Assembly: GCA_004293915.1 (NCBI GenBank)
Contig: RDZG01000099.1
Coordinates: 1 to 33,835 of the forward strand
Source of the DNA: Bacteroidota bacterium
GTDB taxonomy: Bacteria > Bacteroidota > Bacteroidia > Cytophagales > UBA9547
Direction of reading: 5' to 3'
DNA: 33,835 nt
Shown here piece by piece: positions 1,714 to 3,411 of this stretch (its first letter is position 1; the number at the start of each line of letters is the position of its first letter). Under the pieces are notes generated by a model, which saw nothing but the letters and a program-made list of their open reading frames with translations, ran no database searches and was not told where the DNA came from. Made by a program: the position numbers and the translations under genes.

Positions 1714-1772
1714 AATAATAAAAAGAAAATAATAATACATATTAATAGTTAAATAATATCTTATAGTAGTTT

Positions 1773-2274
1773 AACGCAGACAGGGTTTCAAACCCTGTCT
1801 GCGTTTTAAAACAGTTGATACCCTTGGTAATCGTCATTGCGAGGGAGAAACGACCGAAGCAATCCCTAGTAATATGAGATTGCTTCGCTTCATGACTAGT
1901 AGTTTAACGCAGACAGGGTTTAAAACCCTGTCTGCGTTTTTACCAGTTGATACCCTTGGTAATCGTCATTGCAAGGGAGGTACGACCGAAGCAATCTCTA
2001 GTAGTATGAGATTGCATGGTTGTTAACGCAGACAGGGTTTAAAACCCTGTCTGCGTTTTTAACGGTTGATACACTTTGAAATCGTCATTGCGAGGGAGGA
2101 ACGACCGAAGCAATCTCTAGTATTGTGAGATTGCATGGTTGTTAACGCAGACAGGGTTTCAAACCCTGTCTGCGTTTTAAAACAGTTGATACCCTTGGTA
2201 ATCGTCATTGCGAGGGAGGAACGACCGATGCAATCTCTAGTAGTATGAGATTGCTTCGCTTCGCTCGCAATGAC
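1773..2274. repeat. Four tandem copies of a composite repeat (33-bp palindrome plus 'IASEAKQS' element)
   Basis: Each unit starts with a 33-bp palindrome: arm aacgcagacagggttt, one spacer base, and the exact reverse complement, at 1773-1805, 1906-1938, 2025-2057 and 2144-2176. A short linker and a segment beginning cgtcattgcgaggga follow. Unit lengths are 133, 119 and 119 bp. The last copy of the second segment is complete, with inverted ends gtcattgcgag (2204-2214) and ctcgcaatgac (2264-2274). Its minus-strand translation contains IASEAKQS, a familiar spurious peptide from dispersed bacterial repeats. The earlier copies lack the right inverted end. No transposase is present, so this is a non-autonomous or REP-like element. 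Confidence 0.85.
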
Positions 2275-2276
2275 AA

Positions 2277-2612
2277 TTTGTCCAAACACAAGTACAACAA
2301 GCTTTCGCATACAAATTATTTGTTCCTGCACTAGTGCAACAAGCTTTCGCATACTAATTATTTGCTCCTGCACTAGTGTAACTAGCTTTCGCATACTAAT
2401 TATTTGTTTCTACACTAGTGCAACAAGCTTTCGCATACTAATTATTTGTTCCTGCACTAGTGTAACTAGCTTTCGCATACTAATTATTTGTTCCTGCACT
2501 CGTGCAAATAGCTTTCGCATACTAATTATTTGCTTCTGCACTAATGAAACAAGATTTCGCATACTAATTATTTATTCCTGCACTTGTGTAAGAAGCTTTC
2601 GCATTACTATTT
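2277..2612. repeat. 42-bp tandem repeat array (8 copies) upstream of the DUF6261-like gene
   Basis: The anchor gctttcgcat occurs at 2301, 2343, 2385, 2427, 2469, 2511, 2553 (first base changed) and 2595, a strict 42-bp period. Each unit includes a short palindrome, gcactagtgc in the best copies, bordered by ttgtt and (c)aacaa, so every unit can form a small hairpin. Copies at 2343 and 2427 share one variant (gcaacaa) and copies at 2385 and 2469 share another (gtaacta), hinting at an 84-bp higher-order unit. Copies nearest the gene are the most degenerate. There are no unique spacers, so it is not a CRISPR array. Confidence 0.9.
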
Positions 2613-2626
2613 TTACATATTTTATT

Positions 2627-2656
2627 TTGATATATAATAAACATGTAATAATTTTG
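2627..2656 (+). promoter_or_regulatory. Bacteroidota-type promoter for the DUF6261-like gene
   Basis: TTG at 2627-2629 (within ttttg), a 19-bp spacer, then TAATTTTG at 2649-2656: an exact match to TTG-N19-TAnnTTTG. Transcription would start near 2661, giving a leader of about 34 nt. The last 42-bp repeat copy ends only about 15-20 bp upstream. Confidence 0.7.
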
Positions 2657-2694
2657 TTTTATAAATAAACATTATAAACTAAAATATACCAATT

Positions 2695-3411
2695 ATGATT
2701 ACTTCAATACCATTAATAAAACTTCGCAATGCGGAGTTTTATCAATTTTGTTCGGATATAACATCTACTTTGTTTAGTTATAACCCAACTGCGTTGGGAA
2801 TTATAAAACCATACAATGTTTTTAGTCAATCTATTCAAAACATTGATGCATTGTTTAAACTAAACCGCACAAGTGTGCACACCGAAGAGCTTATTGCTAT
2901 TGACGAACGCAGAGATAAAGCCATTATTGGTATTTTGCTTTATGTCGAAGGTATGACTTACCATTTTGACCAAAACATCAGCAAACAAGCCACTATGGTT
3001 TTAAATCAGATTAACACCTATGGCACTGGTATTGCACGTCAAAACTATCAAACAGAAACGGCTACGATTTCAAATATCATACGAGACTGGGATACAAAAC
3101 CAGAGTACACTACTGCAATTGGTTTACTCAACTTGATGTTATGGAAAAATGAATTGGCGGAAGCTAATACGTTGTTTAATGCTAAGTATCTCGAACGAGC
3201 GAAAGATGATTCCGAAAATGTTTCGACCGAAACCATGAAAGAAAAGCGTGCTGAAACTACTGCGGCTTGGCAAAAACTAAAATCTACGATAGAATCTATC
3301 TATACTATTCGTGAGATGGAAGAAACAGGCTTAGAAACCTACGATGCCGTGATTAAAAACATCAACGTTATTATCGAAAAATACAACACCTTGTTGGCAA
3401 GTAGGAAGTAG
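2695..3411 (+). CDS. DUF6261-like protein of unknown function
   Basis: 238 residues, no signal peptide and no membrane segment; predicted almost wholly helical. The order of features fits my recollection of the DUF6261 family, common in Bacteroidota: an IPLIKLRNAEFYQF start, a central stretch with DERRDKAIIGI, a GTGIARQNYQTETATI segment, then a helical second half (NELAEANTLFNAKYLERAKD). No catalytic motif is visible. The ATG at 2695 is about 34 nt after the predicted transcription start of a perfect promoter and is preceded by an A-rich leader. The gene stands alone, downstream of the 42-bp array and upstream of two hairpin repeats. Family assignment is by recognition of the pattern; function is unknown. 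Confidence 0.75.
   Translation: MITSIPLIKLRNAEFYQFCSDITSTLFSYNPTALGIIKPYNVFSQSIQNIDALFKLNRTSVHTEELIAIDERRDKAIIGILLYVEGMTYHFDQNISKQATMVLNQINTYGTGIARQNYQTETATISNIIRDWDTKPEYTTAIGLLNLMLWKNELAEANTLFNAKYLERAKDDSENVSTETMKEKRAETTAAWQKLKSTIESIYTIREMEETGLETYDAVIKNINVIIEKYNTLLASRK

Follow-up and report, generated by a model that had tools for sequence, protein, structure and literature searches.

An upstream tandem array of conserved period and divergent sequence usually accompanies DUF6261 genes across the Bacteroidota

Described repeat arrays and the DUF6261 locus

The centromere-operators of partition systems (parC/ParR, tubC/TubR) are tandem repeats lying just upstream of the genes, and the dimers that line up side by side on them double as repressors of transcription; in the accessible part of the source, the repeats are either one block or split across both sides of the promoter (PMC5016525). 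The locus considered here, found in a 33,835-nucleotide stretch of DNA from a Bacteroidota bacterium (hereafter the window), is similar in that tandem repeats stand beside a gene of the DUF6261 family, before or after its promoter. It is unlike the parC type in that DUF6261 arrays are chromosomal, often occur several times per genome and have a unit of 41–42 bp; moreover, no motor ATPase or GTPase gene recurs in the neighbour clusters listed for the loci, and DUF6261 matches no known centromere-binding protein family.

Type III toxin–antitoxin systems offer a second comparison. In ToxIN, as described in the available sections of PMC8860590, an array of approximately three to six structured repeats with a conserved core lies upstream of one protein gene, the protein is an RNase toxin with a fold like that of type II toxins, and the array sits between a promoter and a terminator. 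DUF6261 arrays also lie directly upstream of a protein gene and consist of structured repeats (median 3.7 copies). They differ, however, in lacking a conserved core, and the DUF6261 protein matched no ToxN-type family by sequence comparison (0 of 25 proteins). In the window the promoter comes after the array and no terminator was found; the promoter-before-array order of ToxIN is thus absent here, and elsewhere 23 of 79 loci have a promoter box before but not after the array, with no box found in 35.

Dispersed intergenic repeats are the remaining comparison. The BrickBuilt MITE-minisatellite of Porphyromonas gingivalis has a 23-nt unit, leader and tail subunits and a limited host range; it is a dispersed intergenic tandem repeat for which promoter activity is reported, according to the portion of its description available to us (PMC4596501). 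The array studied here is likewise an intergenic tandem repeat dispersed in its genome, but its unit is 42 bp rather than 23 nt, and BrickBuilt is not reported, in that same portion, as tied to one gene family. REP elements are also palindromic intergenic repeats, and a REP-like block adjoins the window array; in contrast to them, the 42-bp array runs head to tail, is linked to DUF6261 and has relatives that are not conserved in sequence.

The window array, its flanks and its unit elsewhere

The array occupies positions 2287–2609 of the forward strand as 7.7 copies of a 42-bp unit, identified with Tandem Repeats Finder (TRF; 87% matches, 0% indels, period 42), a listing of units and autocorrelation. 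In the autocorrelation, computed over 200 bp, identity at lag 42 was 0.92, with a score of 8.0 compared with at most 2.0 in 30 shuffles. The 42-bp tandem array that the initial annotation had reported is therefore real, although its count of eight copies holds for seven good units only, the last being degenerate (28 of 42 positions agree with the consensus). That annotation also described two alternating variants (gcaacaa and gtaacta) that would make up an 84-bp unit; units 2–5 do alternate, and the best lag in the 600 bp upstream of the gene is 84 (identity 0.96), but the other units do not follow the pattern. A scan for the palindrome TGCACTAGTGCA located seven copies 42 bp apart between 2327 and 2590, one perfect, four with one mismatch and two with two. 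Allowing up to two mismatches, there were eight matches in the window, seven of them inside the array; shuffles gave 1.04 on average and four at most. The hairpin-forming palindrome said to lie in each unit is consequently present in seven, but it is perfect in only one, and the array does not stand out in single-strand folding (z −1.5 when folded whole as DNA; z about 0 when the final 180 nt are folded as RNA).

Joined directly to the 5' end of the array is a block of four REP-like palindromic repeats (1771–2278, forward strand; TRF, unit listing and repeat search), and the junction between block and array is common to the window and a second contig of the genome, C44. The composite REP-like repeat combines a long palindrome (AACGCAGACAGGGTTT...) with another inverted repeat, and it occurs at window positions 1771–2278, in C44, C6, C40, C103 and C84, and in other contigs; a search with one repeat returned 40 matches in the genome, counting both strands of the palindrome and the window's own copies. 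Further upstream, positions 1–1302 hold a nine-copy 144-bp tandem repeat with long open frames, probably part of a repetitive-protein gene that extends past the window edge. A Por secretion-tail domain was also matched in the window (Pfam), and together with the promoter type it indicates a member of the Bacteroidota.

On the other side of the array, between it and the gene, lies a likely promoter, TTTG-N19-TAATTTTG (2626–2656, forward strand; sequence reading and box scan), with TTTG at 2626–2629, a 19-bp spacer and TAATTTTG at 2649–2656. A promoter just 3' of the array had been annotated before, and this site agrees with it. It likely belongs to the TAnnTTTG type, a promoter box reported for flavobacteria in the accessible part of PMC9723704, and it is the only TAnnTTTG box within 500 bp upstream of the gene; the site is absent from the list returned by a scan for sigma-70-type promoters. 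No terminator-like sites were found in the window between 2200 and 2720. Directly after the array, over 79 loci of the survey described below, TTTTT occurs at 13.1 per kb and AAAAA at 34.2 per kb. The gene that follows (2695–3411, forward strand) encodes 238 amino acids and is the only DUF6261 gene found in the genome; the assignment proposed earlier is borne out by a match to PF19775 (E 3e-30, 105.6 bits) well above the curated cut-off of 27.

The same unit occurs elsewhere in this genome. C44 carries a longer array of it, between an AraC-type gene (HTH_18, HTH_AraC) and a repeat-rich gene, and contig C93 carries an array of a variant; neither has a DUF6261 gene, the genome search having found only the window's copy. 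A pattern of the unit, with up to three mismatches, matched 21 sites in its own genome; among 290 other genomes of the order it matched in 28, with no more than five matches in any of them, and none of the places listed in those 28 was a tandem set. BLAST with the whole array found it in one of 291 genomes, its own. No match to the array was found in phages or plasmids. Genome and viral contigs, a collection that perhaps does not cover this genome's own records, likewise contained nothing that matched the pattern of the unit exactly.

We also scanned for orphan arrays. A sample of 338,586 bases of the window's genome held no period-41 array at identity 0.55, and its period-42 arrays were at C44, C93 and C96, the last as a 21-bp repeat; two regions of 7-bp microsatellite, of which 42 is a multiple, were picked up as well. 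The C96 array (L224:13740–14020) is a 21-bp tandem repeat (AGCTATATACTATTAACGTAT-like) between two convergent open frames, and by eye it is unlike the 42-bp unit. In 400 kb sampled from a second genome (G683) there was again no period-41 array at 0.55, and period-42 arrays were found in four contig stretches (L279, L280, L286 and L288). Those at L288:11290–11510 and L286:750–960 are orphan 42-bp arrays between larger open frames, with no DUF6261 gene seen adjoining; the L288 unit resembles, by eye, the array of a DUF6261 locus of the same genome (L164). Given the period-42 arrays at C44, at C93 and in G683, orphan arrays without DUF6261 are real. On the evidence of the searches with the unit and the array alone, the window array would pass for an ordinary species-specific minisatellite. 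A dispersed minisatellite of this kind, unrelated to DUF6261, was considered and dropped once TRF showed arrays upstream of many other DUF6261 genes.

Arrays upstream of DUF6261 genes across the phylum

The survey drew its DUF6261 genes from the organism's own family, order and phylum and from the family to which a further genome, G302, belongs. In the latter 122 of 320 genomes were positive, and 60 further loci were picked from its list by hand, not at random. For each locus the best period was the strongest between 15 and 120 in the 600 bp upstream. The first 25 loci, in which the strongest period was 41 or 42 in 19 (500 bp upstream), formed the hypothesis and are included in the total of 115, as is the window. 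Across the 115, the best period was 42 in 46, 41 in 30 and 82–84 in 25, or 101 in all; this count includes near-identical pairs, such that not all loci are independent. Identity was at least 0.5 in 95 of the 101. In the 600 bp downstream these periods were best in 7 of 114 loci, and identity reached 0.5 at 41 or 42 in two. In another order, that of G625, where 44 of 374 genomes were positive, a second set of loci gave 25 of 29 upstream versus 2 of 29 downstream. Two loci below the curated family cut-off (L016, L049) were excluded from both the 25 and the 115. One locus (L137) was scored as a miss: its gene is nearly identical to that of L138, and the sequence from the first codons upstream, array included, is unrelated.

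Among 688 control genes of at least 150 amino acids, from sampled stretches of three genomes, the best period was 41, 42 or 82–84 in 49, and these 49 include all five DUF6261 genes recognised among the controls together with several divergent neighbours that share an intergenic region with a DUF6261 gene. In 400 kb of one genome (G587), a scan at lag 41 or 42 with identity of at least 0.55 returned six entries, two of which are one array. Five immediately precede DUF6261 genes, with each of the four stretches that contain DUF6261 represented, and the sixth lies elsewhere (L116). Period-41 arrays at this threshold occurred only at DUF6261 loci, and at 0.50 three more weak places away from those arrays appeared.

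A DUF6261 gene with an upstream array is, with near certainty, a two-part module found across the phylum. The survey of other DUF6261 genes that the initial annotation had proposed thus returned an upstream array of the same period in most of them (101 of 115 and 25 of 29). Of the two observations it had named as jointly contrary to its reading, that other DUF6261 genes lack arrays and that the same unit occurs at unrelated loci, the former does not hold and the latter does.

Pooled autocorrelation of the upstream regions has sharp peaks at 41–42, 82–84 and 123–126, and is flat downstream and in the coding part; a half-period signal at 21 bp is weak and equal to that in coding sequence. TRF unit statistics, which accepted only periods of 40–43, were kept for 105 of 144 loci, the others having no 40–43-bp unit or, in the first set, an array ending more than 250 bp upstream; the consensus unit was 41 bp in 47 and 42 bp in 42, that is, in 89 of the 105. 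A length of 41–42 bp is approximately four turns of B-DNA. Copy number ranges from 2 to 10.6 with a median of 3.7, and the distance from the end of the array to the start codon has a median of 73 bp over 86 loci, the middle 80% of which fall between 29 and 174 bp. The units of the window array run head to tail without the unique spacers that would mark a CRISPR array.

Inverted repeats are common in the units. A perfect stem of at least 6 bp is present in 59 of the 105, compared with 9.1 in composition-preserving shuffles, and the dyads recur at lag 41 or 42. Between loci, stem arms covary in two clades. In clade B the stem arms, placed by means of their flanking sequence, matched at 4.83 of 6 positions (30 units of 14 loci) versus 3.76 when arms were swapped between units, and in clade C the outer stem matched at 5.08 of 7 (51 units of 24 loci) versus 4.57; in each case 0 of 5000 permutations did as well. 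These tests rest on the loci in which the anchor was found (14 of 27 in clade B, 24 of 34 in clade C), and the signal between loci is inflated by shared ancestry. The same swap test detected no covariation in the inner hairpin of clade C, and within single arrays none was detected either (33 loci, 264 paired cells versus 268.5 permuted). In two close relatives (L205, L206) the arrays homogenise separately.

The unit and the protein appear to descend in parallel. In the tree, the window protein groups with a 30-protein clade drawn from other orders of its class (support 99/89), on a branch that is long and was flagged; six proteins with short or missing starts were omitted. The six units most like the window's, among 101 others, all belong to that clade and have text around TGCAACAAGCTTTC in common. 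In comparisons of the 102 loci with a usable protein, 104 same-strand pairs of units scored at least 20, 102 of which were between proteins at least 50% identical, together with 12 opposite-strand pairs. Units of distant loci are thus unrelated in sequence; resemblance is nearly confined to loci whose DUF6261 proteins are related, and most of it is on the same strand. Paralogues within one genome can have quite different arrays, as in G587 and G683. This combination of a conserved period and an unconserved sequence points to an undescribed module of gene plus array.

DUF6261 proteins are 209–269 amino acids long (109 proteins). In an alignment of 25 diverse members R73 is invariant and D70 and D74 are nearly so. 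AlphaFold, given the window protein alone, returned a helical model at low confidence (pLDDT 41); the isoelectric point is 5.4 for this protein and 6.4 as the median across the family. All 25 proteins searched match DUF6261, and none gave a convincing match to a known function, fold, defence or DNA-binding family, with PADLOC and NCBIfam matches weak and scattered (best E 1.6e-4 and 1e-3). In the open-access literature covered we found nothing on topic for DUF6261 or PF19775, and nothing on point among the matches listed for 41-bp, 42-bp or Bacteroidetes tandem repeats. Relatives of the window protein were found neither in plasmids nor, by peptide patterns, in genome contigs, and no relative of another family member (that of L040) was found in viral contigs. 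A phage-labelled metagenomic scaffold (L219, MT837725.1), which may be bacterial DNA, has a weak DUF6261-like match beside frames that by eye are HU-like and methyltransferase-like; over the whole record period 41 ranks second (0.58, upstream of the gene) to 23 (0.60). Several genomes of the order of G625 (G1175, G1268, G1074, G1260 and others) have at least nine DUF6261 genes each.

Some neighbours recur. In 22 of 115 loci (e.g., L188, L039, L042 and L193), the window not among them, a nearby gene encodes a helix-turn-helix (HTH) protein with a coil-like end; 19 of the 22 frames lie upstream in the same direction, some ending directly at the array, and one of the proteins matched Pfam HTH_3. 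A lipoprotein-like gene diverges from DUF6261 in 20 loci, and these two form the largest clusters of neighbours. No motor gene was common to the loci among the 14 neighbour clusters listed for the 115, as judged by eye, with Pfam used for the HTH proteins alone.

Possible roles of the array

The question of whether the array acts as DNA or as RNA turns in part on the promoter. Of the 79 loci with a well-placed array, 23 have a TAnnTTTG box solely before the array and 14 solely after it, while in 35 no box was found; in clade A the box sits between array and gene in 16 of 24 loci, as in the window. Judging from these boxes, the likely promoter precedes the array in certain clades and follows it in others, a variability that is expected of a DNA platform rather than of a fixed leader. 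The main rival to such a platform, possible but in our estimate less likely than not, is a scenario in which the array is transcribed as a chain of equal-length hairpins that the DUF6261 protein binds, is regulated by or processes, in the manner of a type III toxin–antitoxin array or a structured 5' leader. TAnnTTTG boxes do peak 60–90 bp before the array in the sense orientation (7.6 per kb, compared with 0.8 downstream of the gene), a peak without a counterpart on the antisense strand, and arrays give much more stable folds than their shuffles do (mean z −3.4 and −2.9 on the two strands, compared with −0.4 in the coding part; n = 109). In clades B and C, whose arrays are likely transcribed, 43 of 60 loci show a small folding advantage of the sense strand over the antisense, and this strand bias keeps an RNA role open. 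The sense strand was the stabler in 12 of 24 loci of clade A and in 15 of the 25 remaining loci; in the second set, for which a fixed stretch was folded, the asymmetry is absent (13 of 29). Other observations are contrary to an RNA partner, including the box between array and gene in the window and in clade A, the lack in the window of either a box before the array or a terminator, the RNA z of about 0 for the window array and the lack of an Rfam match in 20 loci. Wobble pairing is equivocal, as G-T and A-C stem mismatches after removal of duplicates are close (80 and 71; normalised ratio 1.42 versus 1.34 in coding sequence) and the clades disagree (22/11 in A, 13/21 in B and 31/15 in C). Hairpins with free linkers would not be expected to keep their length fixed to about 1 nt. 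Given the fixed length, the variable placement relative to the promoter and the absence of within-array covariation, a DNA platform is somewhat more likely than an RNA partner.

Three further explanations were considered. A selfish or neutral minisatellite, here joined to REP-like palindromes, could have landed by chance beside the gene and expanded by slippage; the arrays of the same unit at C44 and C93, the REP-like junction common to the window and C44 and the orphan 42-bp arrays of the second genome are all consistent with this. It leaves unexplained, however, why one period with unrelated sequences recurs in 101 of 115 and 25 of 29 loci compared with 49 of 688 controls, and why unit and protein descend in parallel, and we therefore consider it improbable for the locus and a neutral repeat unlikely for the DUF6261 family as a whole. 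Gain or loss of units might instead tune or flip DUF6261 expression, as at a contingency locus. The range of 2 to 10.6 copies and the separate homogenisation in L205 and L206 would fit such a switch, but a length switch has no need of a strict 41–42-bp unit, and because the side of the likely promoter on which the array lies differs from clade to clade, a simple promoter switch becomes less plausible. The copy-number-variable switch put forward at the outset is not supported, the differences having been seen between loci and the homogenisation within a locus, and we regard it as doubtful, more so than a neutral repeat. Lastly, the array could encode a protein of 14-residue repeats, since open frames run through it (132 aa on the forward strand; 111 and 50 aa on the reverse) and one sense frame is free of stops in the window array and is interrupted just once over the 462 nt examined at C44. 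On the antisense strand, two stops interrupt the most open frame of the window array and six that of C44, where no antisense frame has fewer; the array also stands before a promoter. Open frames do not by themselves settle coding, and a stronger argument than stop counts is that related units are 41 bp as often as 42 (47 and 42 of 105), which shifts the frame with each unit; the earlier view of these frames as by-products gains from this, and a coding role seems very improbable indeed.

Our preferred reading, which we hold tentatively, is that the array would be a helically phased protein–DNA platform of approximately four turns per unit, serving or regulating DUF6261. With a unit close to four turns of B-DNA, every dyad would lie on the same face of the helix, and a symmetric protein could assemble side by side along the array as a cis-acting platform. 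Most simply that protein would be the DUF6261 product itself, or else a co-evolving partner, a candidate being the HTH protein whose gene adjoins some loci. Such a complex would control its own gene and may reach related orphan arrays elsewhere in the genome as well, after the manner of iteron or centromere-operator arrays. Contact between neighbours on one face would fix the spacing, whereas the sequence could drift with the protein. Several observations do not sit easily with this platform: DUF6261 has no convincing DNA-binding family match, its model is of low confidence and its isoelectric point is acidic to the degree given above; stems do not covary within arrays; the slight sense-strand advantage in clades B and C hints at RNA; no box was found in 35 of 79 loci at the places searched; orphan arrays exist without DUF6261; and the 21-bp signal is weak. 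The iteron-type site suggested by the initial annotation is retained in that an iteron-like anatomy linked to DUF6261 is general in the family, but the link is not exclusive given the arrays at C44 and C93.

A broader proposal, which we advance with slightly more reserve, is that these loci may constitute an undescribed, phylum-wide chromosomal array-binding system in which selection holds unit length at four turns as the sequence changes in step with the protein. Orphan arrays would then be further targets of that protein, and the system would have a regulon of its own or a role in organising DNA. A repeat whose length but not sequence is conserved over a phylum is unusual and is invisible to sequence-similarity searches. 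The conserved anatomy, rapid turnover of sequence and many paralogues recall conflict, partition or regulatory systems. The module ties an uncharacterised family, present in at least nine copies in some genomes, to a definite DNA or RNA target, and the function of DUF6261 thereby becomes directly testable.
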